Program-made: the position numbers and the translations under genes
DNA from: Pseudomonadota bacterium
GTDB taxonomy: Bacteria; Desulfobacterota; Desulfobacteria; Desulfobacterales; RPRI01
Length of the DNA: 64,000 nt
Assembly: GCA_018817425.1 (NCBI GenBank)
Contig: JAHITX010000079.1
Span: 124,001 to 188,000, forward strand
Reading direction: 5' to 3'
Shown here: piece after piece, positions 26,248 through 59,170 of the stretch
Numbering within the stretch: the first letter of the stretch is position 1
How the letters are laid out: every line of letters begins with the position of its first letter
The notes under the pieces: generated by a model
What the model was told of the DNA's origin: nothing
What the model saw: the letters and a program-made list of their open reading frames with translations, nothing else
Databases searched by the model: none

Positions 26248-26894
26248 TCCGATCTATTACCCAACAAAAGCCAATGGAAGAAATTGAAAGCCTTCTTTAC
26301 GGGATAAACAGAGTATTTATAATCGGCTGCGGAACTTGCGTTACCCTTACTCAAACCGGCGGTATATTTCAGGTGGAAGCTATGAAGAAATCCTTGTCGG
26401 AGAAAGGCAAGGTAGTAACAGGTACCACGGTTGTTCCGGTGGCTTGTGATAATCTGACTGCAGATATTTTAAGAGAATTTGAGGCTCAGTTGAAACAGGC
26501 TGACGGGCTGCTTATCATGACATGTGCGTTCGGTGTTCAAACCATAGCATGTCAGATTAAAAAGTTAGCCGTTCCGGCGCTAAATACTCTTTTTATCGGC
26601 AAGGAAACAGGCGCCGGCGAATATAATGAAGTCTGCACACAATGCGGCACATGCGTCATAGGAGAAACCGGCGGAATATGTCCTGTAACTGCCTGTCACA
26701 AAGGTTTGGTAAACGGTCCCTGCGGTGGTACAAATAACGGGAAATGTGAAATAGATTCCAACAAAGACTGTGCATGGACTTTAATTTATAATCGATTAAA
26801 AGAACTTGAACGCCTTGATGTTATGCGGGTTTACAAAAAACCTCGAAATCATCTTGGTGAACCCAGTCCTGGAAAATATCAAATTCCGGTTTGA
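26244..26894 (+). CDS. MetV-like zinc/iron-sulfur protein (MTHFR C-terminal domain family)
   Basis: A 216-residue protein of the family that accompanies MetF in acetogens (MetV). It has a Rossmann-like N-terminal half beginning with VFIIGCGTCVTLTQTGG and the diagnostic cysteine-rich tail: CTQCGTC ... GGICPVTACHKGL then GPCGGTNNGKCEIDSNKDCAW. In the acetogen enzymes MetV carries FeS/zinc sites and joins the flavin MetF subunit to the electron-donating partners. The start overlaps the preceding gene by four bases and metF follows 36 bases downstream, so the three are built together. Confidence 0.85.
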   Translation: MIRSITQQKPMEEIESLLYGINRVFIIGCGTCVTLTQTGGIFQVEAMKKSLSEKGKVVTGTTVVPVACDNLTADILREFEAQLKQADGLLIMTCAFGVQTIACQIKKLAVPALNTLFIGKETGAGEYNEVCTQCGTCVIGETGGICPVTACHKGLVNGPCGGTNNGKCEIDSNKDCAWTLIYNRLKELERLDVMRVYKKPRNHLGEPSPGKYQIPV

Positions 26895-41915: not shown

Positions 41916-42695
41916 TCAGATTGCCAGAGTATAACCCCCGCTCACCCGCAATGTTTCACCTGTAATAAAGGATGATCGTGCTGAGGCCAGATACAGCATT
42001 GCTTCGACTATATCATTAATATCACCTTCACAATCCAGGACTTGCTGTTTCTTTATGGTGTCAAGAATCCACTCCGGCAATTCTTTCCGGATCGTGTCGG
42101 TGTAAATCAGTCCGGGAGCAATAGCGTTCACGCGGATACCGTCGGCCTTGAAGTCGCGTGCCATAGTGATAGTCAGGCCACGAACTGCAAGCTTCGACAC
42201 GCCATAGGTGGTTGGACAGTCATAGGCGGCTGAAGATGAAATATTGATGATCACTGAGTCCCCGCGACCCGACATGGCCTGGTGTGCTGCCAGCGAGCAG
42301 ATGATTACACCCATCACATTCACATCGAATAGCCTACGCAATTTGGCTATTCCCGAGGTGGTCATTGGTTCTGCGTAAGCGGCGGAGTGCAGTCCGGCGT
42401 TATTTATAAGGATATCGATACCGCCATACTCTGAAACAACCCGCTCTATCACGGTAGCGACCTGTATCTCATCGGCTACATCACACTCGACCGGAAGAGC
42501 CTCGCCTCCGCTGGCCCGGAGTTCAGCAGCAGCTTCCTCCGCTGCTACACCATCAATATCCGCCAAAACGATACGTGCGCCGCGCTCCATGAGTGCCTGC
42601 CCGAAGGCCTTGCCGAAACCTCGACCGCCACCGGTTATCAAAGCGACTCGTCCTTCGAATTCATGAGATTCGTTCTTGTTCATAACTTTTCCCAT
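41916..42695 (-). CDS. Short-chain dehydrogenase/reductase (SDR 4)
   Basis: A 259-residue classical SDR: TGGGRGFGKAFG, 'ILINNAGLHSAA', Ser in 'NISSSAAYDCP', YGVSKLAVR and 'FITGETLRVSGGYTLAI'. The ATG at 42695 is chosen because GTAGGAGAACACA precedes it; a GTG seven codons upstream would overlap the previous gene. Base composition here and in the next gene downstream (40529) is noticeably more G+C-rich than in neighbouring genes (for example 'GCGCCGCGCTCC' wording), a hint that this two-gene segment was acquired separately. Confidence 0.87.
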   Translation of the reverse strand: MGKVMNKNESHEFEGRVALITGGGRGFGKAFGQALMERGARIVLADIDGVAAEEAAAELRASGGEALPVECDVADEIQVATVIERVVSEYGGIDILINNAGLHSAAYAEPMTTSGIAKLRRLFDVNVMGVIICSLAAHQAMSGRGDSVIINISSSAAYDCPTTYGVSKLAVRGLTITMARDFKADGIRVNAIAPGLIYTDTIRKELPEWILDTIKKQQVLDCEGDINDIVEAMLYLASARSSFITGETLRVSGGYTLAI

Positions 42696-42712
42696 ATTGT
42701 GTTCTCCTACCT

Positions 42713-43498
42713 TCACATTAGAAGATAACCCCCATCAACAACTACAATACTGCCGGTCATATAATCAGACATACTGCTTGACAAAAAACATACAACTTTG
42801 GCTATGTCATCAGGAGTTCCCCAGCGGCCAAGAACAGAACGCGCCGGAGGTATTGCGTCTGGTGGTAAGTTCAGCGATGCCAAAACTGCTGCCCCACCCG
42901 GCGTAGGAACGCCGCCGGGAGCAATAGCGTTTATTAAAATATTATGCTGGCCCAGTTCTTTGGCTAAAGATTTGGTAAGAGATATTACACCACCTTTTGT
43001 AGCGTCATAATGAATAAGATTACCGGACGGAACAATTGCACCGCATGAGGCAATATTGATGATTCTTCCTCCTTGACCGCCTTCAATCATCTTTTTTGCA
43101 GCAGCCTTGCTATAGAAGAAGAGTCCTTTTAGATTGATATCCATAGTTTTAATCAATAATTCTTCGGATAAATCCATAAAAGCAGAAGGAATATAAATGC
43201 CGGCATTGTTTACAAGGATATCAAGCTGTCCAAATTTGGCAACAGCTGTTTGCACCACACGATCTGCATCGCCGGAGATTGATGCATCGGCCTGAATCAC
43301 AGCAGCTTTTCCTCCCGACCTGGTAATTTGCTCTTTGGTATGACTGGCTGCATCTGCATTAATATCTGAAATTAACACTGAAGCTCCTGCTTCAGCCAAT
43401 CTAAGGGCAATTCCCTGGCCTATCCCCATTGCAGCACCTGTAACAATTGCAACTTTCCCATTAAGATTAAGTAAGTTAGATATTCCTGATGTGCTCAT
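42713..43498 (-). CDS. Short-chain dehydrogenase/reductase (SDR 5)
   Basis: A 261-residue SDR, sister of the gene at 27920. Cofactor loop TGAAMGIGQG, 'ILVNNAGIYIPS', Ser in 'NIASCGAIVPSG', HYDATKGGV and 'MTGSIVVVDGGYLLM'. Both sisters share 'PPARSVLGRWG' near the C-terminus. Ribosome site AGGAGAG six bases before the ATG. It stands at the start of a three-gene tail behind one copy of the 142-bp repeat. Confidence 0.88.
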   Translation of the reverse strand: MSTSGISNLLNLNGKVAIVTGAAMGIGQGIALRLAEAGASVLISDINADAASHTKEQITRSGGKAAVIQADASISGDADRVVQTAVAKFGQLDILVNNAGIYIPSAFMDLSEELLIKTMDINLKGLFFYSKAAAKKMIEGGQGGRIINIASCGAIVPSGNLIHYDATKGGVISLTKSLAKELGQHNILINAIAPGGVPTPGGAAVLASLNLPPDAIPPARSVLGRWGTPDDIAKVVCFLSSSMSDYMTGSIVVVDGGYLLM

Positions 43499-43789: not shown

Positions 43790-46096
43790 TCATGCAACTT
43801 TTTTCTCCTGAAGCTGCCGGAGAATCTTTTCCGGGGTCAAGGGAAGCTCTTTGAATCTTATGCCTGTCGCATCGTAGATTGCGTTAAAAATAGCAGGGGC
43901 AATGGGAGCCAGCAGGCCTTCCCCGCTTTCCTTTGCACCAAAAGGACCACCTGGATCATTGGATTCGATAAAGATATTTTCCATTTCCGTCATCTCAAAC
44001 GCTGTAGGTATTTTGTAGTCAATAAATGACGGATTTAATGTTTTGCCCTCACTGATGAGCAATTCTTCGTGAAAAGTGTATCCGAGTCCCATTGCTGCCG
44101 ACCCCTCAATCTGACCCGTCAATCCCAGTGGATTAATGACACGTCCGCAATCATCAGAAACCGTAAGCTTTCCCACCTTTACATGACCTGTTTCCTGATC
44201 AACCCTTACCTCTGCAATTACTGCTACAAAGCTGTAAGCAGGTGAATAATTGCCGTATCCTGTCACCATATCTACTTGACCCATTTCCGGGCTATATGAA
44301 CCTGCTCCCGTAACAGCCATGCCACCTTGAGCCATCTGACATAGCGCTATTGCCTCAGTAAAAGAAAATCCCTTGTCGGGCATACCTTTTACATAGATTC
44401 TCCGTTTTCTTGCTTTCATGTCTTCAACTCTTGCTTCCAGTTTTCCTGCAACCGCCTGTAAAAGCTTCTGCTTCAAATCAGCAGCCGCCCGTTTGGCTGC
44501 ATTACCGGTTTGGAAAGTAACCCGGCTCCCTGAGCTGAACAAATCGGGGGGTGTTAAATCCGTATCAGGGATTGTGATTTTTGTATCCTCCAATTCTATA
44601 CCCAGTTCTTCCGCTACGATTTGCGAAAGCACTGTATCAGATCCCTGGCCGATATCGGAAGCACCGGAAATTATCATAACCGTGCCGTCAGTATTGGCTT
44701 TAACAAAGATAGTAGAAGAAGCCGTGAAGGGACCCATCATGGGAAAACTGGGACCGCACTCAAAGCTGCTGCAAGCAACGCCGATTCCCTGTAGAGGAGG
44801 AAGTTTTCTGTATTTGGACTTCCATTGTGAGGCCAGGGCAGCCGTGCGTAAACATTTTGACACGCTTCCGCTTGAAATTTTAAGGCCGTTTGAGGTTATA
44901 TCTCCGGCCTTAAGACCGTTTTTAATTCTTAGCTCAAGCGGGTCTAAGCCTAATTCTTCAGCTACCGCATCCAGTTGCACTTCCGAAGCCAGTCGAATCT
45001 GAGGTGACATAAATCCCCGCATTGCCCCGCAGGGGGTGTTGTTGGTATATACACGGCAGGATTCAAACTTCATATTAGGCAGCCTATAGGGAAGCGTAAG
45101 CCACAGGTTGGAAAGTATGGCAGCACCATGCCCGAGGCTGCTGTATGCACCTCCATCAATCATTGTCTTTGCTGTCCGGCTTATGATTGTTCCATCTTTC
45201 TTAACCCCGATCTTCAAAATCACTTCCAGGGGATGTCTTCTCCTGCCTGCGGTAAACTCCTCTTCCCGAGTGTAGTAAATCCTGACCGGTCGGCCTGTCT
45301 TTTGTGAGAGTAAGGCACAACAGAGATAAAGGGGGAAAATTTCCATTTTTCCACCGAAGCCGCCTCCCATTGGGGGCTTTATCACCCTTACTTTGCCCGG
45401 CTCAATACCCAAAAGAACCGCCAGAGGATTTTTCAACATAAAAGGGGCCTGGGTAGAAGTCCAAAGGGTCAGCTTCCCTGAAGAATCGAAATCGGCTATA
45501 GAAACATTAGGTTCCATGTAACAATGCTGTACAGCCCCGGTTATAAACTTATCCTCCCGGATATAGTCGGAATCCCGAAAGCCTGCCTCAACGTCGCCGA
45601 ATTCCAGTTTTGCCCCGGCCGAAATATTTCCTTTAAAACCCTCATGGATTAATGGAGCCCCTTCTCTTATTGCTTCTTCTATTGAAAAAACGGGAGGAAG
45701 CTCTTCATAGTCAACCTCGATAAGCTCCAAAGCCTCTTCTGCGGCATCTTCACTGACTGCAGCTACCGCCGCAACCTCATCACCGATATAGTTTACCTTA
45801 TCCCGTGCCAAAAGGTATTGATCACCACTTCCCGGCAATGCAAGCATCATAAACCCGTATTTAATGTCTACAATGTCGTGCCCGGTAATAACCGCTTTTA
45901 CTCCTTTAACCCTTTCCGCTTTGCTTGTATCAATTTTCACAATCCTTGCATGGGGATAAGGGCTGCGCAGGATTTTACCGTATAACATGCCAGGTAAAGA
46001 TATATCCGTGGTAAACTGTGCTTCCCCATTTGCTTTAATTATTCCATCTACCCGCGGTAGTGGTTTTCCAATTACAGCATAATTTCCCATAGCCAT
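43790..46096 (-). CDS. Xanthine dehydrogenase/CoxL-type molybdenum-binding catalytic subunit
   Basis: A 768-residue catalytic subunit of the molybdenum hydroxylase family (XdhA, CoxL, 4-hydroxybenzoyl-CoA reductase alpha). Signature segments: 'GKPLPRVDGIIKANGEAQFT' at the N-terminus, 'MGGGFGGKMEIFP' near 245, 'CGAMRGFMSPQ' near 355, 'SGASDIGQGSDTV' near 480 and the catalytic glutamate in 'GPFGAKESGEG' near 725. It would hydroxylate or dehydroxylate a ring or aldehyde carbon with water as oxygen source. The usual FAD and [2Fe-2S] subunits are absent from the window, so partners are encoded elsewhere. It lies between the repeat and the MtmB-like gene. Confidence 0.87.
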   Translation of the reverse strand: MAMGNYAVIGKPLPRVDGIIKANGEAQFTTDISLPGMLYGKILRSPYPHARIVKIDTSKAERVKGVKAVITGHDIVDIKYGFMMLALPGSGDQYLLARDKVNYIGDEVAAVAAVSEDAAEEALELIEVDYEELPPVFSIEEAIREGAPLIHEGFKGNISAGAKLEFGDVEAGFRDSDYIREDKFITGAVQHCYMEPNVSIADFDSSGKLTLWTSTQAPFMLKNPLAVLLGIEPGKVRVIKPPMGGGFGGKMEIFPLYLCCALLSQKTGRPVRIYYTREEEFTAGRRRHPLEVILKIGVKKDGTIISRTAKTMIDGGAYSSLGHGAAILSNLWLTLPYRLPNMKFESCRVYTNNTPCGAMRGFMSPQIRLASEVQLDAVAEELGLDPLELRIKNGLKAGDITSNGLKISSGSVSKCLRTAALASQWKSKYRKLPPLQGIGVACSSFECGPSFPMMGPFTASSTIFVKANTDGTVMIISGASDIGQGSDTVLSQIVAEELGIELEDTKITIPDTDLTPPDLFSSGSRVTFQTGNAAKRAAADLKQKLLQAVAGKLEARVEDMKARKRRIYVKGMPDKGFSFTEAIALCQMAQGGMAVTGAGSYSPEMGQVDMVTGYGNYSPAYSFVAVIAEVRVDQETGHVKVGKLTVSDDCGRVINPLGLTGQIEGSAAMGLGYTFHEELLISEGKTLNPSFIDYKIPTAFEMTEMENIFIESNDPGGPFGAKESGEGLLAPIAPAIFNAIYDATGIRFKELPLTPEKILRQLQEKKVA

Positions 46097-46187: not shown

Positions 46188-47546
46188 TTACTTGTAAGGA
46201 ACTCCCATCCGCGCAAGTTCATCTTTTACTCTGTTATAGCTGCTAAGCCAATCTTCCTTCGGTTGGACAGTCTTTAAGTCATATAGTTCGGGAAAGTCTT
46301 TAGGCTGCTGGGCATGTTCTTTTTCAACTATCCACCTGTCATAAATAGTCTTAGCCAGTTTATTAGCTTTTTGCTCATCCATACCTGCAACAGCCGAGAG
46401 TATTTCACCAACAAAGCGAGCCTCCAAGCCTGACCAGCCTGTGCTCCAGCAATATCCAAATCCACAAGCTGTATAGAGAACAGATGCAGCCGCCTCCCAA
46501 TAAAGAGATGCTTCAGTGCCCCTGAACTTCTCCTCGGTAGTTACCATACCACCAATGGGAAGTCGGACATTGCGTTCTGCGGCGCGGGTTGCCGCTCCGT
46601 TTGCCCATAATGTTTGCGACCTTGTCCATTCACCCCTTACGGTATTATTCCAAATTTGGGCCGGGATTGCGTTGCTGTAAGCGAGCTGCCCCAGCATGCT
46701 TGCAATCATGCCCACAGCCGTTTCCTCCGGACCCCGGCATAGAGCGCCTTCGACTGACATGCCACTTACCCATGGAACGAAGTCCCACTCTTTCACAATC
46801 AAAGCTAAGGTAAGCCTCGACCAGTCAACCTTAAGCTCCGGCATGACATGAGCAGAAAGCTGAATATTATGGCGTCCCCGAAATCCTTCATGAACCAATG
46901 CGAGAAAACCACCGATACTTGTGACGGAAGAATGAAGTCCAAGATGCATGTCAGGTCGTCCAAGCCGTTGCAGCACTTCCAACATGGCCTTGTTTTCCCA
47001 CAGCGCACAGTAAACTTCAGAAGGAGTACCCACTTTGATCGGGATACCGTCAACCGAGGGGACACCGCCACTAATCGCTAAAGCCTGATTGGATTCCTCC
47101 TGTACAAATGACTGCACGAATTGTGAAAACCACTCTTGCCGGATGGGTACTGTTCCGCCACCATGCGCACCTGCAGCCAGCACCGGTGGGCGTTTATCTT
47201 TGCCTGTCCGGTGTTGATAACAGACCTCATCCTTACCCAGGCCAAACATAACCATATCCGGACCGGTTCGAGCATTTTCAACAACCTGCTGAAGCTCTTG
47301 CCTGCTGAATTTAATAACCCTTTGAGTATCTATATTATAGAGACCCACCTCAGCCAGTAGTTCCACACCTGCCTGAAATATCGCGTCTGCTGTCGCATCA
47401 TCTGCGATTAGCTGCTCGGCGTCATACTTGATATTGTATTTTGGAGTCAATTCACGTATCTTGCGTGCAAACAAAAGGTCAAATTCCTTGCTTTTCATCA
47501 CCGGGCCGGTCTCGGCTCTATTCTGAATATCCATCATCGGTAGCAT
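46188..47546 (-). CDS. MtmB-like corrinoid methyltransferase without pyrrolysine
   Basis: A 452-residue member of the monomethylamine methyltransferase (MtmB) family, close to the archaeal length. Shared wording includes 'AIFQAGVELLAEVGLYNIDTQRVIKFS', 'GTPSEVYCAL', 'GRPDMHLGLHSS', 'ARFVGEILSAVAGM' and the ending 'YDLKTVQPKEDWLSSY'. Archaeal MtmB needs an amber-coded pyrrolysine; here the frame has no internal TAG, so as with non-Pyl MttB proteins the substrate is probably not a simple methylamine. It should move a methyl group from substrate to the cobalt of the corrinoid protein encoded 80 bases upstream. Ribosome site AGGAGA. Confidence 0.82.
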   Translation of the reverse strand: MLPMMDIQNRAETGPVMKSKEFDLLFARKIRELTPKYNIKYDAEQLIADDATADAIFQAGVELLAEVGLYNIDTQRVIKFSRQELQQVVENARTGPDMVMFGLGKDEVCYQHRTGKDKRPPVLAAGAHGGGTVPIRQEWFSQFVQSFVQEESNQALAISGGVPSVDGIPIKVGTPSEVYCALWENKAMLEVLQRLGRPDMHLGLHSSVTSIGGFLALVHEGFRGRHNIQLSAHVMPELKVDWSRLTLALIVKEWDFVPWVSGMSVEGALCRGPEETAVGMIASMLGQLAYSNAIPAQIWNNTVRGEWTRSQTLWANGAATRAAERNVRLPIGGMVTTEEKFRGTEASLYWEAAASVLYTACGFGYCWSTGWSGLEARFVGEILSAVAGMDEQKANKLAKTIYDRWIVEKEHAQQPKDFPELYDLKTVQPKEDWLSSYNRVKDELARMGVPYK

Positions 47547-47626
47547 TTTGTATCTCCTATATTGGGTTATCGTAAATTTTATGAATTAGTATTACTCGAT
47601 TCGACTTATCCCATAAATACGCCTGA

Positions 47627-48271
47627 TTACTGGCCCATGATCTTGTCACAGAGCTTAACTGCTGATGGAGCATCGGGCGCCCACCCGTCGGCACCTATTG
47701 ATTCAGCTAATTCTGCCGATGCAGCTACTCCGCCGATGATGACCTTGTACTTGTTTCGTAATCCCATATCGTTCAGGTAGTTTATCACTTCGGCGTAGAA
47801 AGGACGGGTTGCATCAAGAAATGCTGAGAGTCCAATAATATCCGCATTAAGTTCTCTGGCCTTGTCAATAAAGGTCATGCTGGGCACATTGATACCGAGA
47901 TCATGAACTTTGTATCCGGCAAGACTTATTTGCCTTAAAACCAAACTCTTGCCAATGTCATGAAGGTCTCCCTGCACAGCACCGAGCAACACTACTCCGC
48001 GTGAGGCATTGGCTTGCTCAGGAATCTTCTCCATAATTTTGTTTGTACAAGCCTCACTAAGATCAGCGCCCATCATCAATTCCGGCAAGAAATATTCTCC
48101 ACTGCCAAACTTATCGCCGATTACCCTAAGTCCGACAATTACGCCCTTTTGAAGGATTTCCAACGGATCATAGCCTTCGTCAAGAGCTTTCTGTACAGCA
48201 GCCATAGCTTTATCTTCGTCCAGAGAAATTACCAGCTCAGTTATAGTTTTAAAAACATCAGCATCACTCAT
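47627..48271 (-). CDS. Methyltransferase corrinoid protein (MtbC/MttC/MtmC-like)
   Basis: A 214-residue B12-binding protein: helical cap domain (about 1-90, 'ALDEGYDPLEILQKGVIVGLRVIGDKFGSGEYFLPELMM' type) and Rossmann-like cobalamin domain with the base-off histidine motif GDLHDIG near 110, 'GYKVHDLGINVP' and 'IIGGVAASAELAESIGADG'. It is the methyl carrier between the MtmB-like enzyme downstream and the methyl-THF methyltransferase at 52591. No RamA-type activator for the cobalt is in the window. Ribosome site GGAGG. Confidence 0.93.
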   Translation of the reverse strand: MSDADVFKTITELVISLDEDKAMAAVQKALDEGYDPLEILQKGVIVGLRVIGDKFGSGEYFLPELMMGADLSEACTNKIMEKIPEQANASRGVVLLGAVQGDLHDIGKSLVLRQISLAGYKVHDLGINVPSMTFIDKARELNADIIGLSAFLDATRPFYAEVINYLNDMGLRNKYKVIIGGVAASAELAESIGADGWAPDAPSAVKLCDKIMGQ

Positions 48272-48383
48272 TCAGATTACCTCCTTTTTCATTTCTAATA
48301 TGCATTCCATAAAACAAATAAATATATAAAATATTATTATTGGTCCAAAACCCTCCAGCTCATCTTATTCCCCCTCACCCTGG

Positions 48384-48407
48384 CCCTCTCCCACGGAGGG
48401 GAGAGGG
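48384..48407. repeat. GC-rich hairpin in the gap between AveC-like and corrinoid genes
   Basis: CCCTCTCCC (48384-48392) pairs with GGGAGAGGG (48399-48407), preceded by CCCCCTCACCCTGG. This wording is a common dispersed intergenic hairpin of proteobacteria. No T-run follows, so it is more likely a REP-type unit than a terminator. Confidence 0.55.
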
Positions 48408-48473
48408 TATATATCCTCTAAACCGAGAGAAGAGTTATCTGAAATGTTTTAATGTATCTCACAGTATTATTTG

Positions 48474-49229
48474 TCATGGCACTAGTAAACTAGGGTTTCC
48501 GAACAACTCCCGCACAGCGACAAGCGGACCAGATAAAAATATTATAAAAAGTCCGTTCATTACTACTATCCATGCTACCAGACGTGTTAGTTCGCGCTTC
48601 CATCCTGCTTTTATCCCTTCAACTCCAAACCATGATTCAAACCGAACCCGTTCATCCGGGCTGTTACGTAACAGCATCCAGGTGGTAATTAATCCGTAAA
48701 AAACAAAAAGTATTATAGGATATACAACAGGAAAGTTACCTCTTTCAGTTGCAAGTGCAGGTCCTATGTAATCTGTGTAGGACCACCAACCCTGACTTGC
48801 AGCAAAGCCTTCAAAAAGCAGATCAAAAAGATAAAAGCTTGGTATCACAACAACAAGTATCCAGCGGTTTTTTTCTAAATTTGGATATTTGTTGTGAAAC
48901 TTATTGATCAGAGCAAGCATCAACAGATATATAGTAGTAAAGAAAGGGCCGTAAGACAGTATAATCGCCCATGGTTTGTTCGGTGCAGTCCAAAGGGTTG
49001 AGCCCCAAGGCATTAGAGAAAATGCAGGGTTAAAGAGCAGATATGCACCCCAATCACAATACCATTCCTGCCAGAACATGGTTGTGGCGGAAATATACAA
49101 AAGTGCTCCGAAAGTAAGAGCTTTGGCACGAAAGGACTGACGGATAAATAAAGTGAGCATGATAATGGATATAATAGGTATGATAATTTCCTGGATCCAG
49201 ATAAAAGATGGATTGTCAAAATGAAGCAT
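48474..49229 (-). CDS. AveC-like integral membrane protein
   Basis: A 251-residue protein with about six hydrophobic segments (for example 'IIIPIISIIMLTLFI', 'WILVVVIPSFYLFDLLF', 'VVYPIILFVFYGLITTWMLL', 'LVAWIVVMNGLFIIFL'). The loop 'WQEWYCDWGAYLLFNP' and 'GWWSYTDYIGPALA' resemble the spirocyclase AveC family, which includes the avermectin spirocyclase and many uncharacterised actinobacterial homologs near lipid/terpenoid genes. I hold this assignment at moderate certainty. In this island it may bind or modify the hydrophobic substrate at the membrane. Confidence 0.5.
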   Translation of the reverse strand: MLHFDNPSFIWIQEIIIPIISIIMLTLFIRQSFRAKALTFGALLYISATTMFWQEWYCDWGAYLLFNPAFSLMPWGSTLWTAPNKPWAIILSYGPFFTTIYLLMLALINKFHNKYPNLEKNRWILVVVIPSFYLFDLLFEGFAASQGWWSYTDYIGPALATERGNFPVVYPIILFVFYGLITTWMLLRNSPDERVRFESWFGVEGIKAGWKRELTRLVAWIVVMNGLFIIFLSGPLVAVRELFGNPSLLVP

Positions 49230-49305
49230 TGTTTTCCCCTCCTATTATTTTGCCGGTATAAAATCCGGCGCCAAAGGATTGGTATATGTTCTGGAGATCG
49301 TGGTT

Positions 49306-50895
49306 TCAGCGGCTGCGCCTGGCAAGATACCGGATGACTCTTGCCGATGATAGCTTGCCTGGCAAACCGGAAACAGCCCCACCAGGATGTGAACCGGCAG
49401 CTCCTAAAAAAAGCCCTTTCACAGGAGTTACATACCCGCCCAGACCCCATGCCGGTCTTAATGGACCCGACCGAAGAAGAGCAAAATCAACATGAGTTAC
49501 ACATCCGTTAACAGCACCTGTTCGCGCACAAAGATCTTCAGGTGTTTCAACCCAACGTCCTATCTCAAGCGAATCAAGATTGTCAAAGTATCGACTGGCT
49601 TCAGACATCATTATATTTTCTGCCTTTTGTCTTAAAATCTGCCAGCCTTCAGCAGGATAAGCCGGGACAGCTGGCGGATACAGGTACAAAACATCCTGTC
49701 CTGCAGGTGCCTGACCCGGATCGCATGCCGTTGGAACAGCCGCCCAGAAATAAAGACCGGGGGTAAGCTCACCCCGCATGGAGTTTGCAAAGGAAGATCG
49801 TATTTCTTCTGCTGTTCCGATAATTAAAGCAGGCACCCTGAGATCGACTCCGTCTTTTCTTAGCTTCTGATGTCTGGAAATTTCAACACGGCCATTAAGA
49901 GCAAGATCGACCTTCATTGGTGCTGCACCACGGGCATTTGCTGGAATATGATCGACGCGTGCTTTTATTTTCCTGTCTAAGACGCCATCAGGCAAAAGGC
50001 GACCCAGTGCTGTACGTGGGTCACAGGCTGCCAGTACTGAATCCGCTTTAATTAAACGCCCGTCGGCAAGGCGGACACCTTCTGCCCTATTATTGTCAAC
50101 TAAAATCTCTTCCACAGGTGTTCCGGTAAGCACTGAACCATTACCTTCGTATAGCCTTCTTTTGAGGGAATCTGCCAGGGACTGCATTCCACCAACCGGA
50201 CGGCCAACCCCAACCTTATGCAAAAGAGCAAGTATAATATGGCCAAGCCCGCTGCCGTCAGCATCTATAGGTCCAGCACCTCCGGCAAGTCCCAAGAGAG
50301 CCGCAATAACAAAAGGGTGTTCGAAACGTTCGCATACAGCCTGATCTGCCGTACCCATGGCAAGTCCTCCCACGTCACCAAGCAGGCGGCGATGAGATAT
50401 TGATGAACCTATTGAGCGAAGAACTTCTCTGACAGACGGTCTTTTGGGATCTGAGCGCATCATGGGAAGGGCAATGTCAAGCATTGCGTTAAGAGTGTTG
50501 GCAAAATCAATATATGCTCTTGCATCTTCAGGCGAGTACCTTTTGATCTCATCTGCAGTTTTTGCAGCGTCACGCCAAAAAACTATTGACTCTCCTTCGG
50601 GTGTAAGGTGGGCATAAGAAGGATCGGGATCTACAGTGCTAAAGCCGTGCTTTTTCAAATCCAGGTCGTTTATTATACTGGTTGTGCGTAAAAAAATACT
50701 ATCCACTGCGCAGGGATGAATAATATGTTCCGGTGCTGACTTGATAAAAGGACCGGAGGAGGTCATTCCTCCGATATTTTTTTGCGCCTCAACAACTACT
50801 ACCTTATGGCCGGCTTTGTCCAGATAGCATGCTGCTATAAGTCCGTTATGCCCGCCCCCTATAACAACAACATCTGTTTTCATTTCAACACCCAT
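49306..50895 (-). CDS. Phytoene-desaturase-like FAD oxidoreductase (COG1233), copy 3
   Basis: A 529-residue paralog of the enzymes at 35408 and 37047. FAD motif VVIGGGHNGLIAACYLDKAGH followed by 'EAQKNIGGMTSSG'; C-terminal block 'FLGAAGSHPGGAVSGLPGK'. An ATG four codons inside (50883) is an alternative start, since neither has a strong ribosome site. This copy is 11 to 12 kb away from the other two and next to the AveC-like gene, so it may work on a later intermediate. Confidence 0.82.
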   Translation of the reverse strand: MGVEMKTDVVVIGGGHNGLIAACYLDKAGHKVVVVEAQKNIGGMTSSGPFIKSAPEHIIHPCAVDSIFLRTTSIINDLDLKKHGFSTVDPDPSYAHLTPEGESIVFWRDAAKTADEIKRYSPEDARAYIDFANTLNAMLDIALPMMRSDPKRPSVREVLRSIGSSISHRRLLGDVGGLAMGTADQAVCERFEHPFVIAALLGLAGGAGPIDADGSGLGHIILALLHKVGVGRPVGGMQSLADSLKRRLYEGNGSVLTGTPVEEILVDNNRAEGVRLADGRLIKADSVLAACDPRTALGRLLPDGVLDRKIKARVDHIPANARGAAPMKVDLALNGRVEISRHQKLRKDGVDLRVPALIIGTAEEIRSSFANSMRGELTPGLYFWAAVPTACDPGQAPAGQDVLYLYPPAVPAYPAEGWQILRQKAENIMMSEASRYFDNLDSLEIGRWVETPEDLCARTGAVNGCVTHVDFALLRSGPLRPAWGLGGYVTPVKGLFLGAAGSHPGGAVSGLPGKLSSARVIRYLARRSR

Positions 50896-50941
50896 CTTAT
50901 TTGATTTAGGGTTGTTTAATGCTTTTAGGTTATTGCCAACT

Positions 50942-52267
50942 TTACTTAGATAAAAGCAAAAAATTGTTTACACTAAAATAGTCGGAAGAGATCTTAGAAG
51001 CAGGAATATATAAAAATGATTCAGGATGTGGTGACCGGTTTACAGTTGTAGCATGTCTGGCTTTTTCATCAATATAGAGCTGAGTGTCGAAATCTCCCGT
51101 ATTGCTTTTCCCGCTTGGGGTAGTAATGTAATGCAGAAATGTAGAAATCCATATCCGAAAATCACCGGATTGATCATATACTTCTTTGTACCATATGGTA
51201 TAGGTTTCCTGGTCAACATAGTTCACATGCAATCCCCAGTTATAATATGGATCTTTAGGCATCTGCTCAATAATCCATACCTTTCTTGGAACGTAGGTTA
51301 TAGAATCAGGTGCCGGCGCCCAATTAGCGCCTTTCCAATTTGGTACTTCATAACCGAATTTTATGTGTTTACCACTATAAGGATAAGACCTGCAAAGACT
51401 TCCATCCGGCAATTCCTTAGCAGTAAGCATTTTAGGGCTGCTAAAACCAACGAGAATCGTCTTTTCGCCTGCATATTTCCATTTCATAGAACTATTTTTG
51501 CCATTCCACATGTAATTCAAATCTATCCATGAATCAGTACCCATATAAGGATCCGATCTCGAAGCCGAACCTGTTTGCCGGATTCTTCGAATAGCAGGAA
51601 CATAAGCACAGCATACATCATATTTATCATCCATATAAATATAACTCATTGTATTTGTTCCTTTGACGCTCATCGGTGATAAAACACGCTGCATCTCATA
51701 AGTTAAAATCTTATCAGGATTATTCTTTACTTCCTGTCCGGGTGAACGTCCTGTCATATAAAGACGCTGATCCAACCCTTCTATATAACGTTCTTCTCCT
51801 TGCATCTTATCTATCCACTGAATATATATATGCTCCCTTGAACCCATAAAGCGGTATATCTGAAAATTGAAGTTCCACATTATCTTATCAGCTACTTTCG
51901 GATCTTTTAAATCAATATTGGGAAAAGGATAACTATAAATATTGTAGGCTGCGAATTTTCCAGTAGTCTTATCTATTAAATTCCCATCCTTGCTCAAATC
52001 AAATTTTCCGGCATTATTTTTGCCCGCTTCAATAAAGCTATCCTGATGCTTGTATTTAAAATTCAAAGTGCCTGGCGTTACAACCCAGTCACCCCTTTCA
52101 ACAGCCCGGTACATAGCTGGAATAAGCAGATCTTTATATTGAGAGCAGTTAGTCTTGTTGATCATCTTTGGTAAATCCATAGCTTGGACAATGTTACCGG
52201 ACAAAAGCAGAAAAAATAATGAACATATTAACAACTTGAATTTATATAAAATACTCATTTGCCTCAT
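50942..52267 (-). CDS. DUF1329 exported protein, copy 2
   Basis: A 441-residue protein with a signal peptide (about 1-30, LLICSLFFLLLSGNIVQA). The mature part matches copies 1 and 3 block by block: 'INKTNCSQYKDLLIPAMYRAVERGD', 'PGTLNFKYKHQDSFI', 'RRIRQTGSASRSDPYMGTDSW', 'RKVWIIEQMPKDPYYNWGLH'. Ribosome site GGGAGGGAG. It is closer to copy 3 than to copy 1. Same suggested role in handling a hydrophobic compound outside the inner membrane. Confidence 0.8.
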   Translation of the reverse strand: MRQMSILYKFKLLICSLFFLLLSGNIVQAMDLPKMINKTNCSQYKDLLIPAMYRAVERGDWVVTPGTLNFKYKHQDSFIEAGKNNAGKFDLSKDGNLIDKTTGKFAAYNIYSYPFPNIDLKDPKVADKIMWNFNFQIYRFMGSREHIYIQWIDKMQGEERYIEGLDQRLYMTGRSPGQEVKNNPDKILTYEMQRVLSPMSVKGTNTMSYIYMDDKYDVCCAYVPAIRRIRQTGSASRSDPYMGTDSWIDLNYMWNGKNSSMKWKYAGEKTILVGFSSPKMLTAKELPDGSLCRSYPYSGKHIKFGYEVPNWKGANWAPAPDSITYVPRKVWIIEQMPKDPYYNWGLHVNYVDQETYTIWYKEVYDQSGDFRIWISTFLHYITTPSGKSNTGDFDTQLYIDEKARHATTVNRSPHPESFLYIPASKISSDYFSVNNFLLLSK

Positions 52268-52302
52268 TTCTTTCTCCCTCCCTTTGTTGTTATGAAAAAT
52301 AT

Positions 52303-52402
52303 TATCTCCGTCATATAACAGCCCTCTTGAGGAGCTCGTAATTTAATAAGCGTTGTCAGGCAAGACATTAAACAACAAGAGGGCTGTTATATGACGGAGA
52401 TA
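52303..52402. repeat. Perfect 27-bp inverted repeat upstream of DUF1329 copy 2
   Basis: TATCTCCGTCATATAACAGC plus CCTCTTG (52303-52329) is exactly inverse to 52376-52402. The 46-base interior has GTTGTCAGGCAAGACATTAAACAAC, containing the TGTCAGGCAAG word also seen in inverse form beside the repeat before DUF1329 copy 1. No gene fits. The perfection of 27 pairs suggests recent origin, as with a mobile hairpin, or strong selection as an operator or attenuator. Confidence 0.65.
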
Positions 52403-52421
52403 GCTTCCTGTACTTTCTCCG

Positions 52422-52556
52422 TCATGGCATAGCCACTCCACCATCAACGGACTTACCAGTAATAAATAAGCCTTCATCTAAAGCTAAAAGTATTGCTATG
52501 CCGATATAATTTTTAACCGAAGCAGTCCGGCTAAGGTGAGTTTCATTAACTACCAT
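52422..52556 (-). pseudogene. C-terminal remnant of a short-chain dehydrogenase
   Basis: The - strand reads 'THLSRTASVKNYIGIAILLA', 'LDEGLFITGKSVDGGVAMP' and stop, the last 40 residues of an SDR and closest to the gene at 33523 ('[39 protein letters not shown]' as pieces). Two residues are lost in the TGxxxSVDGG strand and everything upstream is gone. It sits between a perfect inverted repeat and the methyltransferase gene, so a rearrangement removed the rest. Confidence 0.8.
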
Positions 52557-52590
52557 TTGAGTCATTTATTTTGGATAATTGAATCACAAA

Positions 52591-53403
52591 TCAAACGCTT
52601 TTTTTACCAAGTTTTCCTGTCCGGAAAGCCTTTATATATTTACGGCAATATTTATCTTCAGCATTCAAAACTGAAGATGCAGCCAAGGTTGACATCAATT
52701 CCTGATCCCGCACATTCAGCATCACAGCATCCGTACCAAGGCCCATAATCATTGCAAGAAATGTACGATTTACAAGGCTTCTCATCGGCATTCCGAAGGC
52801 TACATTTCCAACAATAGTAAAAGTTTTAAACTGTGAAAATCTTTTGCGAAGAATTTGATGTGTATCAATTGTCACCTTACTTGCTCGCCAATCGACTGAT
52901 ACAGTCATAACCAGAGGGTCTATATATACGGCCTCCGGTTTTATCCCCGCCGACACGGCCTGTTCGATAATAATCTCAGCCATAGCTACTCTTCCCTCAG
53001 GGTTATCAGGAATACCTTTTTCGTTCATACATAAACCGACGATACCGCAATTGAGTTCTGCCGCAAGGGGTAGTAGTCTGCCGAGGCTTTCTTTTTCAGC
53101 GGTAACCGAACTTAAGATCAGTTTGGAACCCTGATAAACTTTGACTGCCTTATGCAAGGTTTCAGGATTTGCGCTATCTAAAACAAGCGGAATACCAACA
53201 GCACTCTGGACAGTCTTGATAAGCCATGATAAATTTTCTTCTTCATCACCTCCGCTTAATCCGCCTGCATTTACATCAAGCATCGTTGCCCCGCATTCCA
53301 CCTGACGTTTGGCCAAGGATTTAATAAATTCTTCATTATGAGTTTCAATAGCATCTCTAACCACAGGCACACTAGCATTAAGAGATTCACCGATAATAAG
53401 CAT
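52591..53403 (-). CDS. Methyltetrahydrofolate:corrinoid methyltransferase (pterin-binding, MT2)
   Basis: A 270-residue TIM-barrel protein of the dihydropteroate-synthase-like methyltransferase family (AcsE/MtgA type): 'MLIIGESLNAS' start, 'GATMLDVNAGG' pterin-binding loop, 'VLDSANPETL', 'ILSSVTAEKESL', 'VYIDPLVMTVS' and 'VGNVAFGMP'. It moves methyl from the corrinoid protein to tetrahydrofolate, or the reverse. With the MtmB-like enzyme and corrinoid protein it completes a three-part route that would feed methyl-THF to the MetF/MetV complex at 18.8-27.8 kb. Ribosome site AAGGAAG. It lies 30 bases from the next flavin enzyme. Confidence 0.9.
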   Translation of the reverse strand: MLIIGESLNASVPVVRDAIETHNEEFIKSLAKRQVECGATMLDVNAGGLSGGDEEENLSWLIKTVQSAVGIPLVLDSANPETLHKAVKVYQGSKLILSSVTAEKESLGRLLPLAAELNCGIVGLCMNEKGIPDNPEGRVAMAEIIIEQAVSAGIKPEAVYIDPLVMTVSVDWRASKVTIDTHQILRKRFSQFKTFTIVGNVAFGMPMRSLVNRTFLAMIMGLGTDAVMLNVRDQELMSTLAASSVLNAEDKYCRKYIKAFRTGKLGKKSV

Positions 53404-53433: not shown

Positions 53434-55380
53434 CTATTGGATTCCCCACCCTGCAAAAAATCCCCTTCTGACTGCTTCTCCAATTAGTCCTACACTTACA
53501 CAATCACCTATGGGGATTGCTGTGATATACTTATCACAAATACTTTTAGACAACTTGCTCTCAGGCTTCATCCCAAAAGCCAGGACCACGATATCAGCTG
53601 CAATTTCAGTTCTTTTTCCTTCATGATCGACAACCTTTACGCCAGTTTCAGATATTTCCGAAACGCTGTGACTGGTCAGCACACTGATATTATGGTTCCT
53701 GAATGCTTCATTTATACAAATCTTGCTGGCCAGAAAAACATTTGGAGCACATTCAGGCAGCATTTCTACTATGGTTACATTATTGCCTTTCATTGCCATG
53801 TCTATGGCGCACTCGCATCCGGTAGAACCTCCACCGGCTATTATAATATTTTCCCCCATGACTTGCTTATTATCCAAATGGGCATCTATGATAGTCATGG
53901 CCTTTGGAGAATCAATGCCTTTGATATTTGGCATGAACGGTTTGGCTCCAACTGCAACTATGATAGTATCTGCACTTTCGAGTTCGGGAGAATCGGCATT
54001 TATCTCTTTGTTCAAGTGTACAACAACATCCAGCTTGCTCATCTGCAAAATCAAATACTCCAGGTATGCCTTCAGTGGGCTTTTGAATGAAGGTTCGGAT
54101 GCTGACAGAAGCTGACCACCCAGGTATTGATTCTTTTCATAGAGATTTACATTATGGCCTTTTAGTGCTGCAACTCTTGCTGCTTCCATTCCGCCGGGTC
54201 CGCCACCAATCACGACTACATTCTTTGGATTATCAGTTAGGGTAACTTGGTATTCTTTTTCAGATCCGCAGGCTGCATTTATTGAACATGATGTTAAACG
54301 CCCGGTTAAGGGTTTTACCAGGCAGTATTCATTACAGCGAATACATGGGCGAAGTTCGTCTCTTTTTCCGTAAAGTAATTTATTGCCCCATTCAGGTTCG
54401 GCCAGTAACCCACGTCCCAACATTATGAAATCGGTTTTGCCTTGCTTTACCGCTTCCACGGCAGTTTCAGGAGTGTAGTTTCCCGCATTCAGGACAGGTT
54501 TACTTGTGGCTTTTTTTGCTTCTGCTGCGTATTCCGCTAAACATGCATCACCCATGTATGGTGTTGGAAAACACCAATTGTGGGCTTCGTAACAGCCTGC
54601 ATCAATATCAAAAGCATCTATACCGGCTGTATCCAGGTACTCAATGATTTCCAGTCCTTCCTTTATTGTTCTGCCGCCTTCAAGTTTGTGATCAATTGCC
54701 ATCCTGTATAATACAGGGAAATCCGTACCGACGTTTTTTCTAATCTCTTCTATTACTTCAGAAGAAAATCTCATTCTGTTTTCAAAGCTTCCCCCATACT
54801 GATCCGTACGCCTGTTCCAGACCGGTGTCATAAACTGATCAAGTAAATATCCTATATGCGCGTGAATTTCTACAGCATCACACCCTGATATTTTGGCTCT
54901 TAATGCTGCTCTGCCAAAACATTTAACTATATCTTTAATTTCTTCAGTCGTTAATTCCCTGGTTGTCAGGTCACTACACCAAAATGCCGGATTGCAAGAT
55001 GCGGATACCAATGGTTCTTCATTTACCGGCGGTGCGTTTCTGCCAAGTCCTGCCGATAACTGCAGGCAAACAGCAGTACCATGTGCTTTTACTCTGTCTG
55101 CAAGAAGTGCCCATTTTTTGGTTTGTTCATCAGTATCCGATGTTGTCAGGTATCTTAAAAAAGGATCTGTTCTGTTTGTAACAACCTGAAAACCTATGAT
55201 TAGCATGCCTGCACCACCCTTGGCACGCTCTTCAAAATAATCCATTTCTCTGGTAGAAAAGCCCCCATCCGGTCGTCCCAAATTCGTACCTATTGGTGCC
55301 ATAACCAACCGGTTTTTGATGCCAAGATTTCCAATGTAGGTTCTTTCAAATAAACTTGAGTATTTATTGTCAATGTCCAT
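53434..55380 (-). CDS. FeS/flavin old-yellow-enzyme reductase (2,4-dienoyl-CoA reductase/BaiCD-like), copy 2
   Basis: A 648-residue enzyme like the one at 30246. FMN barrel with 'AVEIHAHIGYLLDQFMTP' and 'DQYGGSFENRMRF', [4Fe-4S] motif CIRCNEYC plus a fourth Cys 12 residues on, FAD/NAD fold VVIGGGPGGMEAARVAAL and second fold IIAGGGSTGCECAID. Start is the ATG at 55380 (AAAGGGG upstream); the ATG seven codons earlier is unlikely. It is more canonical than copy 1. Likely reduces a C=C double bond conjugated to a carbonyl in a ring or acyl-CoA. Confidence 0.87.
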   Translation of the reverse strand: MDIDNKYSSLFERTYIGNLGIKNRLVMAPIGTNLGRPDGGFSTREMDYFEERAKGGAGMLIIGFQVVTNRTDPFLRYLTTSDTDEQTKKWALLADRVKAHGTAVCLQLSAGLGRNAPPVNEEPLVSASCNPAFWCSDLTTRELTTEEIKDIVKCFGRAALRAKISGCDAVEIHAHIGYLLDQFMTPVWNRRTDQYGGSFENRMRFSSEVIEEIRKNVGTDFPVLYRMAIDHKLEGGRTIKEGLEIIEYLDTAGIDAFDIDAGCYEAHNWCFPTPYMGDACLAEYAAEAKKATSKPVLNAGNYTPETAVEAVKQGKTDFIMLGRGLLAEPEWGNKLLYGKRDELRPCIRCNEYCLVKPLTGRLTSCSINAACGSEKEYQVTLTDNPKNVVVIGGGPGGMEAARVAALKGHNVNLYEKNQYLGGQLLSASEPSFKSPLKAYLEYLILQMSKLDVVVHLNKEINADSPELESADTIIVAVGAKPFMPNIKGIDSPKAMTIIDAHLDNKQVMGENIIIAGGGSTGCECAIDMAMKGNNVTIVEMLPECAPNVFLASKICINEAFRNHNISVLTSHSVSEISETGVKVVDHEGKRTEIAADIVVLAFGMKPESKLSKSICDKYITAIPIGDCVSVGLIGEAVRRGFFAGWGIQ

Positions 55381-55421
55381 AAATTCCCCTTTTATCCTCA
55401 TAATCGTTATCTCTTACGATA

Positions 55422-57032
55422 TTACTTTTGTGATACAGCATGTTCGATGGCAGTATACCCGGAGGTAGTCGACATACTGCAACCACCTAAAAGACCGAAG
55501 CCCATTGGAGTTCTGCCCTCACCGATACTTCCACCGGCTGTGAAAAATGCGGCGTATAGCCCGGAAATAGGCTTTGCATCTATATCCAATACCTGCATGT
55601 GACGATTCGTCCTCAAGCCACAGCCGACAGGCCCCATGCTGCCGCCTGCTTTCAGCCCATAAAACGGAGCTTGCTTTATCGGTATCAGAAAGCGTTCAGG
55701 TGTTTCGAATTCAGGGTCCTCGCCGGCATCACAATATCCATTCCATTTCTCTACTGCCTGCTTGAAAAGAACCTTATCCAGGCCTAACTTTACAGCTAAC
55801 TCCTCAAGTGTATCGGCCACTCTTATTGCTCCCAAATCAATCGATTCTTTCACAGCCTCCCGCCAATCATCCGGGCAAAGCAGATTGTTTCTGGTAACTG
55901 TATTCAGGCCAGGAATATCCGGTGTGATGGGGCGTTTGCAGGATAGCCCCAATGGGACATCGTCCTGGATCTTCCATATATTTTCTTCGTATTTGTTATC
56001 AAAAATAACATACGCCCTTCCACCAGGTTGTGCTCCCATTGCGGGCGGCCTTAACATGTATTGGCTTAAGTTATTATCCATCATCATAAATCTTTCGCAC
56101 GCTTTGTTTAAGTGCAGCCACGGGGCCCTCGACAACTGAACATCTCCGGAATATAAATATCTAAACCACGGGCCACCTTTCTCCGTAAGGTCTATTCCCC
56201 CCTCAAAGCATGTGCACGAGTCAAATCCTGCCACATCGGCTCCTGCTCCAAGCCCCATCCTGAAACATTCTCCGGTATTTGACGGCAGAGACATCGATAC
56301 ACTGCCGACACCTTTATATACTGAGGGCGCATATTGCTTAAGCAGGCTTCGATTGTGCTGCATACCGCCGGCCGCCATAAGTACGGCGTTTTTTGCTTTT
56401 ATGAAGATGGTGATTCCCTCAGAATTGGTAGCTTTTACCCCCACAATCCTGCCATTATCTCTCACTAATGCGGTTATTTGAGTATTGGTGTGAAATTTAA
56501 CACCTTTTTCATTGCATTTTTCGGTCAGAAAATTCATGAGGTCAGTCATCGGAATATAGCACAATCTCTGGTGACCGCCTTTGGAAGTAACTGCGGGGTA
56601 TCCTGCTATCTCACTTTCCCATTCAAAGCCTTGATCTTCTATCCAATCAACGACTTCACCACTCTTTTGTATCATATTGCGAAACAAATGGATGTTGCCT
56701 GTGTAACCAGTCTCAAACAGGCTTCCCATAGCAACTTCGTTTGCATCCCATTCTATACCTTGCTTTTTCTGGACCCTGCTGTTGTAAGCGTAAAATGCTC
56801 CGGCGTATTGCGATGTCCCGCCGGTAAATTTCAATTTCTCCAAAAGAATCACGGAGCATCCTTCCAACCTGGCTTTAAGTGCGCCTGCAAGGCCTCCTCC
56901 TCCTGACCCGACTACTACTATATCGGCCTCCTGATCCCATTTTGCCGGTGGTTCTTCCGGCAGGATTGGTTTTGCATCTTCAGGTTTTTCCATTGGCTTT
57001 AGTCCTACTCTCCAATCATAGTTCTTGTTCAT
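55422..57032 (-). CDS. FAD-dependent oxidoreductase, 3-ketosteroid dehydrogenase/fumarate reductase flavoprotein-like
   Basis: A 536-residue FAD_binding_2 protein. The dinucleotide motif is VVGSGGGGLAGALKARLEG (near 35) followed by 'LLEKLKFTGGTSQYAG', a middle substrate-cap domain, and 'YAAFFTAGGSIGEGRTPMGFG' with the C-terminal FAD contacts. This layout is that of KstD-type 3-ketosteroid dehydrogenases, urocanate/fumarate reductases and BaiJ-like proteins; which activity it has cannot be fixed. The ATG at 57032 has GAGGAGGAAAC just upstream. It is the first gene after a -24/-12 promoter and therefore the lead gene of the run 57.0-40.5 kb. Confidence 0.82.
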   Translation of the reverse strand: MNKNYDWRVGLKPMEKPEDAKPILPEEPPAKWDQEADIVVVGSGGGGLAGALKARLEGCSVILLEKLKFTGGTSQYAGAFYAYNSRVQKKQGIEWDANEVAMGSLFETGYTGNIHLFRNMIQKSGEVVDWIEDQGFEWESEIAGYPAVTSKGGHQRLCYIPMTDLMNFLTEKCNEKGVKFHTNTQITALVRDNGRIVGVKATNSEGITIFIKAKNAVLMAAGGMQHNRSLLKQYAPSVYKGVGSVSMSLPSNTGECFRMGLGAGADVAGFDSCTCFEGGIDLTEKGGPWFRYLYSGDVQLSRAPWLHLNKACERFMMMDNNLSQYMLRPPAMGAQPGGRAYVIFDNKYEENIWKIQDDVPLGLSCKRPITPDIPGLNTVTRNNLLCPDDWREAVKESIDLGAIRVADTLEELAVKLGLDKVLFKQAVEKWNGYCDAGEDPEFETPERFLIPIKQAPFYGLKAGGSMGPVGCGLRTNRHMQVLDIDAKPISGLYAAFFTAGGSIGEGRTPMGFGLLGGCSMSTTSGYTAIEHAVSQK

Positions 57033-57194
57033 TTTTGTTTCCTCCTCATATATAAACCGAAAAAGTGAACTCATTCCCTGCTTCCTGTGGTAAGTTTAGC
57101 GAGAGAATCTAAAAGGATTAAAAGTTATTACGTTTGAAAATCTCCAGTCTGATATGTGGCATGGAGCCTTAATCTATGCAGTTGCCAATCTCAT

Positions 57195-57210
57195 TGCTTA
57201 AATCGTGCCA
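57195..57210 (-). promoter_or_regulatory. Sigma-54 (-24/-12) promoter of the 57.0-40.5 kb operon
   Basis: On the - strand the sequence is TGGCACGATTTAAGCA: the -24 element TGGCACG and the -12 GC are exactly ten bases apart, matching the sigma-54 consensus apart from AA in place of TT before GC. It lies about 160 bases before the FAD-dehydrogenase start codon and faces a sigma-54 activator gene (57509), so the pair fit as promoter and regulator. Confidence 0.7.
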
Positions 57211-57508: not shown

Positions 57509-59170
57509 ATGGATGAAAATGATTTTTTCCGTCAGGCAACTTTACAGATTTGTGGTAGTCTTGATATCGAAACTTCCTTATGGAATGCTTTTGAATATCT
57601 GGAAAAGTTTATGCCGTTAACAGGCATGAATCTTGTGCTGGGAGAGCCGGGTATGCCTGCAATAGAAACGCTGGCCCAGGTAAGCCGCAATAAAATTGAA
57701 AAAGTTGCCCGTAAGATTCCTTTACCACAAGAAATGCAGGCGGTACTGGAGCGTCAATGGGTGGAATTAACTGATGTTGGAATTATCAACCAGCCTGACT
57801 CGTTTCCTGTAAGCAAAGAAATAGCTCAATTGCTTGAAATGCCTGAAATGTCGACATTGACTATGCGTCTTAAAATAAATGATTCAAAACTGTTTGCTCT
57901 GGTAGTTTATTCAAAAGGAATAGACCAATATACAAGAGCACATGCCAATTTATTATCGCTTTTACACGACCCTTTTGCCATTGCCATGTCAAATGCATTA
58001 AAACATCAGGATGTCCTCAAACTTAAAGAATTGCTTGCTGATGACAACCGGTATCTTCATAACGAGCTGCTTCGTATTTCCGGAAATGAGATTATAGGCA
58101 GGAGAAAGGGGCTAAAGAAAGTTTTCGATATGGTACGGCAGGTAGCTCCTTTAAACAGTCCGGTGCTTTTGCTGGGAGAAACCGGGTCAGGAAAAGAAGT
58201 TATTGCCAATGCTATCCATTATTCATCACCACGAAGAAGTGGGCCTTTCATTAAGGTTAATTGCGGCGCTATACCGGATACGCTGATTGACAGCGAGCTT
58301 TTCGGACATGAGAAAGGAGCTTTTACAGGAGCATTATTCCAGAAACGTGGCAGATTCGAAAGGGCTCATAAAGGAACAATACTTCTTGATGAAATCGGAG
58401 AACTACCACAGGAAGCGCAGGTTAGACTTTTGCGTGTAATCCAAAACCAGGAAATTGAACGTGTTGGCGGAACGGAATCTATATCTATAGATATCCGTAT
58501 TATTGCCTGTACTCACAGAAATCTTGAAAAAATGGTTTTATCGAAACAGTTCAGAGAAGATCTCTGGTTCAGGCTGAATGTATTTCCTATAAACATACCT
58601 CCACTAAGGGAAAGAATAGAAGATATTTCCGAACTTGTTGAATACTTTATGAAGCAAAAGTCCATTGAAAGAAATATTCCTGCCGCACCAGTCATTGCAA
58701 GCGAATCTATCGAGAAACTAAAGAATTATCATTGGCCCGGAAATGTGCGTGAATTGGAAAACTTTGTGGAAAGAACTTTAATCCAGAATCGGGGTAAAAA
58801 TATTTCGGAACCGATATCTTTTGATAATTCACTTTTTCAGACACCGGAATCCGAACCGGAGCAACAAGTAGAACTAAATTACAAAACTACAATAGAAGAT
58901 AAACTTTCAATGCACATGAAAGAAATCATAAAAATAATCTTACCGGAACCGGAACGCAGTAAATTATACTCCCAAAAAACTGAAGATGAATCATTAAAAC
59001 TTGATGATGCTTTAGCTTCACACATAAATAAAGTGCTGAAGATAACCAGAGGAAAAGTAACCGGTCCGGGTGGTGCCTCCGAACTTCTCGGTCTGAACCC
59101 CAGCACTCTAAGAAGTAAAATGAAAAAGATCGGTATATCACTCAGCAAGAAAGATCTTTTTAATGCTTGA
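57509..59170 (+). CDS. Sigma-54-dependent transcriptional activator
   Basis: A 553-residue enhancer-binding protein. An N-terminal sensor domain (about 1-170, GAF-like but not assigned) is followed by the AAA+ domain: Walker [10 protein letters not shown] near 228, the sigma-54 contact loop GAFTGA near 272, Walker [13 protein letters not shown] near 290, arginine fingers in '[14 protein letters not shown]' and '[17 protein letters not shown]'. The C-terminal Fis-type HTH (about 510-545) includes '[20 protein letters not shown]'. The linker at 440-500 is longer than usual. It likely senses a pathway compound and turns on the divergent -24/-12 promoter. Confidence 0.93.

Follow-up and report, generated by a model that had tools for sequence, protein, structure and literature searches.

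A corrinoid methyl-transfer gene block in a Desulfobacterales genome: a candidate folate-coupled C-demethylation system for steroid-like compounds

The 64,000-nucleotide stretch of DNA analysed here (the window: contig JAHITX010000079.1, positions 124,001 to 188,000, of assembly GCA_018817425.1, placed by GTDB in the Desulfobacterales) contains a single co-directional block of genes, from 57074 to 40529, which includes three genes for methyl transfer (Table 1). They encode an MtmB-like methyltransferase, a corrinoid protein and a methyl-tetrahydrofolate:corrinoid methyltransferase (MeTHF-MT), all on the minus strand. An earlier sequence-only reading of the window had named these three genes, and family models identify each of them (PF05369; PF02607 with PF02310; NF005719), so a three-part substrate–corrinoid–folate gene set is supported. 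The MtmB-like protein matches PF05369 over its full length, is the product of the sole PF05369 gene in the 5.1-Mb genome and has MtmB (1l2q, E=4e-31) as its closest PDB relative. Its corrinoid neighbour carries both B12 domains, and the motif in it reads DLHDIG. The MetV–MetF pair that the same reading had pointed to (PF12225, PF02219) lies ~19-20 kb from the methyl-transfer block and is likely where methyl-tetrahydrofolate enters the folate pathway.

By its sequence, the MtmB-like protein belongs to the clade of EmtA, which is described as the oestrogen methyltransferase subunit of Denitratisoma and a relative of MtmB without pyrrolysine (Pyl; PMC7448270). It shares 40% identity with D. oestradiolicum EmtA over the full length and 25% with MtmB, and its corrinoid neighbour shares 49-50% with EmtB, also over its full length. 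A tree was built from 27 MtmB-family proteins (AbeA and MtqB, discussed below, are not in the set). In it, the window protein, two EmtA sequences and eight others form an 11-member clade, which stands apart from other MtmB relatives with support of 100/99 and appears as one group in 200/200 bootstrap trees. An alternative tree, in which the window protein and its close counterpart in a second genome lie further from EmtA than a D. oestradiolicum paralogue does, was rejected (approximately unbiased test, p-AU 0.0145). Tight grouping with an enzyme whose substrate is simple and known, which by the earlier reading's own terms would have counted against it, is not what the tree shows for the window protein; it forms a deep branch beside the steroid enzyme EmtA.

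In all clade members, a single residue is deleted, precisely at Pyl202; Ser takes the place of Glu259, and Ser or Gly that of Glu229. A further signature consists of 24 residues which are fixed in the clade and missing from five other MtmB-family proteins that were aligned. The window protein shares the Pfam family and the fold of MtmB (predicted fold, template modelling score 0.79) but not its Pyl and catalytic active-site residues: Pyl202, Glu229, Glu259 and Gln333 of MtmB correspond to a gap, Ser231, Ser261 and Met334. With the deletion at Pyl202 and no internal stops, it is a non-pyrrolysine enzyme, as previously proposed.

The D. oestradiolicum genome (G1215) was found by a family-level search, to which 16S/23S probe patterns had led. 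Its contig C2 carries plasmid pI (NZ_LR778302.1) with identical coordinates and 100% identity, and the genome is therefore that of D. oestradiolicum. The emt locus (L064) lies at 1.187 Mb, which agrees with locus tags 1167-1170, and its gene order (luciferase-like oxidoreductase, 102-aa protein, EmtB, EmtA, SHMT-like, MetH-like) matches the published cluster (PMC7448270). From published descriptions, we infer that the 102-aa protein is EmtC and the luciferase-like oxidoreductase EmtD. A second genome of the family (G1171), possibly strain DHT3, has the same emt arrangement. Other searches were less productive: a 3-sequence alignment run against named genomes gave five loci, none in Denitratisoma; a random class sample gave no match; all 4 class-level matches of the probe patterns were due to chance; and no relatives were found on plasmids. 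At L065:7247-9349, ~14 kb before emtA, D. oestradiolicum also has a second MtmB-family gene, whose product is 28-29% identical to the window protein; the corrinoid-like protein beside it lacks DxHxxG.

Relatives of the window protein tie the clade to ketosteroid chemistry through true KstD and luciferase-like neighbours. A 50% identical relative (L023) is followed by a protein matching 3-oxosteroid 1-dehydrogenase 7p18 (E=4e-182; KstD model, 642 bits), and a 45% relative (L027) is flanked by KstD-like proteins to either side (E=3e-99; KstD model, 447 bits). In a soil metagenome-assembled genome (MAG; L028/G399), EmtA-clade genes have luciferase-like neighbours (judged from translations), as at emt. 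That MAG holds four EmtA-clade genes (L028, L034-L037), two of them in tandem, and a genome of the same phylum (G279) has four differing MtmB-family genes outside the EmtA clade (L005, L015, L020, L022).

The second genome is a mine MAG under the label Desulfonema limicola (G395). It has counterparts of seven genes of the block, at 82-93% identity, mostly within two conserved sub-blocks. One consists of the AveC-like, EmtB-like and EmtA-like genes (90, 93 and 92% identity; locus L024), with the AveC-like gene adjoining EmtB just as in the window, and the other of the genes for the old yellow enzyme (OYE)-type flavoenzyme, MeTHF-MT and the DUF1329 protein (89, 89 and 82%). Short-chain dehydrogenase/reductase (SDR) 2 also has a counterpart at L024 (83%). 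Upstream of AveC in G395, a tungsten aldehyde oxidoreductase-like gene (judged from its translation) replaces the CrtI-like gene. The ratio of nonsynonymous to synonymous substitution (dN/dS) for the seven genes is 0.04-0.24, i.e., they are under purifying selection. Given this selection and the conserved sub-blocks, the block is neither a chance nor a dead arrangement.

Table 1. Genes of the methyl-transfer block and associated features (positions in the window).
Feature	Position	Strand	Details
EmtA/AbeA-clade MtmB-family non-Pyl corrinoid-dependent methyltransferase	46188..47546	-	452 aa; PF05369 E=1e-56
EmtB-like corrinoid protein	47627..48271	-	214 aa; PF02607+PF02310; DxHxxG at residue 102
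AveC-like hydrophobic protein	48474..49229	-	251 aa; PF17198 E=8e-12
CrtI/CrtO-like FAD oxidoreductase	49306..50895	-	529 aa; NF045689 E=3e-74, below cut-off; PF01593
DUF1329/LolA-like protein	50942..52267	-	441 aa; PF07044 E=2e-34
Methyl-THF:corrinoid methyltransferase (MeTHF-MT)	52591..53403	-	270 aa; NF005719 271.6 bits vs curated cut-off 259
OYE-type flavoenzyme, BaiCD/bilirubin reductase-like	53434..55401	-	655 aa; NF045599 417 bits, NF041087 411 bits, both below cut-off
FAD-dependent oxidoreductase, fumarate/urocanate/vinylphenol reductase type	55422..57074	-	550 aa; best NF053717 192 bits
Xanthine-dehydrogenase-family molybdenum (Mo) subunit, 4-hydroxybenzoyl-CoA reductase alpha-like	43790..46096	-	768 aa; TIGR03194 768 bits (cut-off 995); PDB 1rm6 E=7e-169
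SDR dehydrogenase 1	41916..42716	-	NCBIfam SDR models
SDR dehydrogenase 2	42713..43498	-	NCBIfam SDR models
HIBADH-like dehydrogenase with C-terminal PcaC-like part	40529..41833	-	last gene of block
Sigma-54-dependent activator, divergent, at block head	57509..59170	+	PF00158 E=2e-68
MetV	26244..26894	+	PF12225
MetF	26931..27818	+	PF02219

Around the three methyl-transfer genes, the block is rich in redox enzymes (Table 1). The AveC-like, phytoene-desaturase-like and OYE neighbours named by the sequence-only reading are all there, the second being of CrtI/CrtO type and the third of BaiCD/bilirubin-reductase type. The FAD-dependent oxidoreductase that begins the block was considered as a true KstD and rejected, as it scores 160 bits with NF009478 vs 642 and 447 for the KstD neighbours at L023 and L027. 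The Mo subunit shares an enzyme family with AtcA. From its position, the divergent sigma-54-dependent activator is likely the regulator of the block. A search for -24/-12 sigma-54 sites gave 19 matches vs 31.75 expected by chance, so the single site at 57195-57210 carries no evidential weight.

Some further features of the region were observed in passing. Four DUF1329 paralogues, 58-68% identical, lie on one contig (window 28765-30081, 50942-52267 and 62707-63966; C79:48658-49968), those in the window standing close to SDR, OYE or CrtI-like genes. Large HTH_3 proteins with a zinc-ribbon-like plus helix-turn-helix C-terminal end are encoded at window 38928-40409, L068:217-1686 and L096:8384-9892; two of them, which share 43% identity, lie on either side of the 40-64 kb block, and the third adjoins a second methyl-transfer operon (see below). 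SelD (window 12505-13554) appears to be itself a selenoprotein, since reading TGA as selenocysteine (U) gives TGAGUASKLAP before the listed start.

Two characterised systems guide the interpretation. EmtA is reported to methylate C10 of oestrogens, which converts them to androgens in the absence of oxygen, with the reverse reaction also seen in cell extracts (PMC7448270). AbeABC of Phosphitispora TUW77 is described in a review as taking the C19 methyl off testosterone, after which the Wood-Ljungdahl pathway oxidises the methyl (PMC12507874). In sediments, testosterone has been observed to turn into oestrogens under anaerobic conditions (PMC5554518). Like the window, EmtABCD combines an MtmB-fold non-Pyl enzyme, with the deletion at Pyl202, and a cognate corrinoid protein. 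It differs in that the window block lacks homologues of EmtC and EmtD as well as S-adenosylmethionine (SAM)-regeneration genes (SHMT and MetH, which adjoin emt at L064) and has MeTHF-MT, AveC-like and CrtI-like genes instead. By description, AbeABC fits the three parts in the window: it is presented as a corrinoid methyltransferase system of the classic kind, with coupling to the Wood-Ljungdahl pathway (PMC12507874). AbeAB is reported to be 57% identical to EmtAB (PMC12507874), whereas the window protein is just 40% identical to EmtA.

On balance, we read the block as a folate-coupled corrinoid methyltransferase system of the EmtA/AbeA type which C-demethylates a steroid-like ring compound, and we hold this with slightly more confidence than doubt. 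Its parts differ in strength. The methyl group is probably carbon-bound, because the characterised clade members act on such methyls rather than on O-, N- or S-methyls. Demethylation is the probable direction, favoured by a folate partner (MeTHF-MT) in place of SAM regeneration, and the methyl would then pass to folate. For a steroid-like substrate, we see the case as evenly balanced. Five RACE-type activators in the genome also count in favour. The sequence-only reading had suggested an undescribed demethylation of an O-, N- or S-methyl on a cyclic compound: a cyclic hydrophobic substrate is indeed probable and demethylation the likelier direction, but neither "undescribed" nor a heteroatom methyl is supported, the protein being a member of a clade in which EmtA, and reportedly AbeA, move a carbon-bound methyl. 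Its view that substrates of non-Pyl MtmB homologues are largely unknown is partly outdated, given the descriptions of EmtA, AbeA and MtqB (PMC7448270, PMC12507874, PMC13044021).

In the proposed mechanism, the MtmB-fold enzyme would position a methyl on a ring carbon of a polycyclic, steroid-like ketone; by analogy, the ketone may be a cross-conjugated dienone and the methyl its angular one. The EmtB-like corrinoid protein would accept the methyl on its cob(I)alamin, leaving a phenol-type ring. MeTHF-MT would then transfer it to tetrahydrofolate for oxidation via MetFV and the folate branch, and the nearby OYE, FAD, SDR and Mo enzymes could set or remove double bonds and oxo groups.

Several observations weigh against this interpretation. 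The window protein and its 92% identical twin at L024 are sister to all other sampled clade members, so, within this sampling, known activities appear not to bracket the window protein. This pair deviates at 28 positions that are invariant in the other nine members (position 302 among them, where Thr replaces His) and carries a 4-residue insertion relative to them. In the predicted model, confidence is low over residues 204-266 (predicted local distance difference test, pLDDT, <50), so the pocket is not readable from it. A search of the window's 201-kb contig for homologues of true KstD, EmtC and EmtD found none. Finally, the EmtAB and MeTHF-MT sub-blocks of G395 sit on separate short contigs. 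On another reading, the deep window branch would be an enzyme in its own right, folate-coupled and cleaving the carbon-bound methyl of a polycyclic other than an androgen (e.g., a sterol, triterpenoid or other terpenoid); we regard this as possible but doubtful.

The same genes could also work in the opposite direction: methyl-THF would charge the corrinoid protein, and the methyl would then de-aromatise and activate a ring compound of phenolic or enolic type, in the manner of EmtAB acting on oestrogens. EmtA, the nearest sequence with genetic support, works in this way in vivo (PMC7448270, PMC12507874), and the OYE and reductase genes could process the resulting dienone. However, the step that passes the methyl from methylcobalamin to oestradiol is reportedly endergonic, and Denitratisoma uses SAM to drive it (PMC7448270), and the SAM-regeneration coupling used there (SHMT, MetH) is absent from the window block, so we consider this direction unlikely. 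Rather unlikely, too, is an enzyme that has diverged from the steroid branch into a heteroatom demethylase, taking an O-, N- or S-methyl off a cyclic compound. The deep branch with its 28 diverged positions would suit such an enzyme, and a methyl-THF partner with a corrinoid protein is the customary set for one, but the carbon-bound methyls of the characterised clade members argue otherwise. To our knowledge, known bacterial O-demethylases belong to other methyltransferase families. This role could moreover be filled by the second methyl-transfer operon, which lies on another contig of the genome (L096:273-8287, G000 contig 11) and comprises two near-identical proteins that read like uroporphyrinogen decarboxylase (URO-D), together with a corrinoid protein and a paralogue of the window MeTHF-MT at 76% identity.

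The remaining explanations carry little weight. The three methyl-transfer genes might be unconnected to each other or to their surroundings, with MeTHF-MT serving general folate chemistry; the 323-bp gap between MeTHF-MT and the next gene and the split across contigs in G395 would allow this. Against that, the block is co-directional, and in G395 its sub-blocks are conserved and under purifying selection, making a lack of connection very improbable. MtqB, a tetramethylammonium/choline methyltransferase, is likewise a homologue of MtmB without Pyl and pairs with a corrinoid protein (PMC13044021), and a quaternary-amine demethylase of this type might thus be envisaged. By description, however, MtqB differs in its substrates and branches close to MtmB enzymes with Pyl, whereas the window protein shares 25% identity with MtmB, falls inside the EmtA clade and has redox enzymes of polycyclic type as neighbours. 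We give this explanation almost no credence.

Oxygen-free removal of a methyl from a ring carbon is rare chemistry, reported only recently for androgens. AbeAB homologues are already known from uncultivated marine-sediment bacteria (PMC12507874), so mere occurrence is less novel. What is added here is a deep, folate-coupled EmtA relative with new partner genes, now placed in Thermodesulfobacteriota, and a concrete substrate class with which to assay the cluster. If the substrate proved to be a non-androgen polycyclic, the block would represent a C-demethylation route not described before, in strictly anaerobic Thermodesulfobacteriota. With this relative placed, the origin and substrate range of anaerobic oestrogen formation and of the turnover of steroids in sediments become testable.

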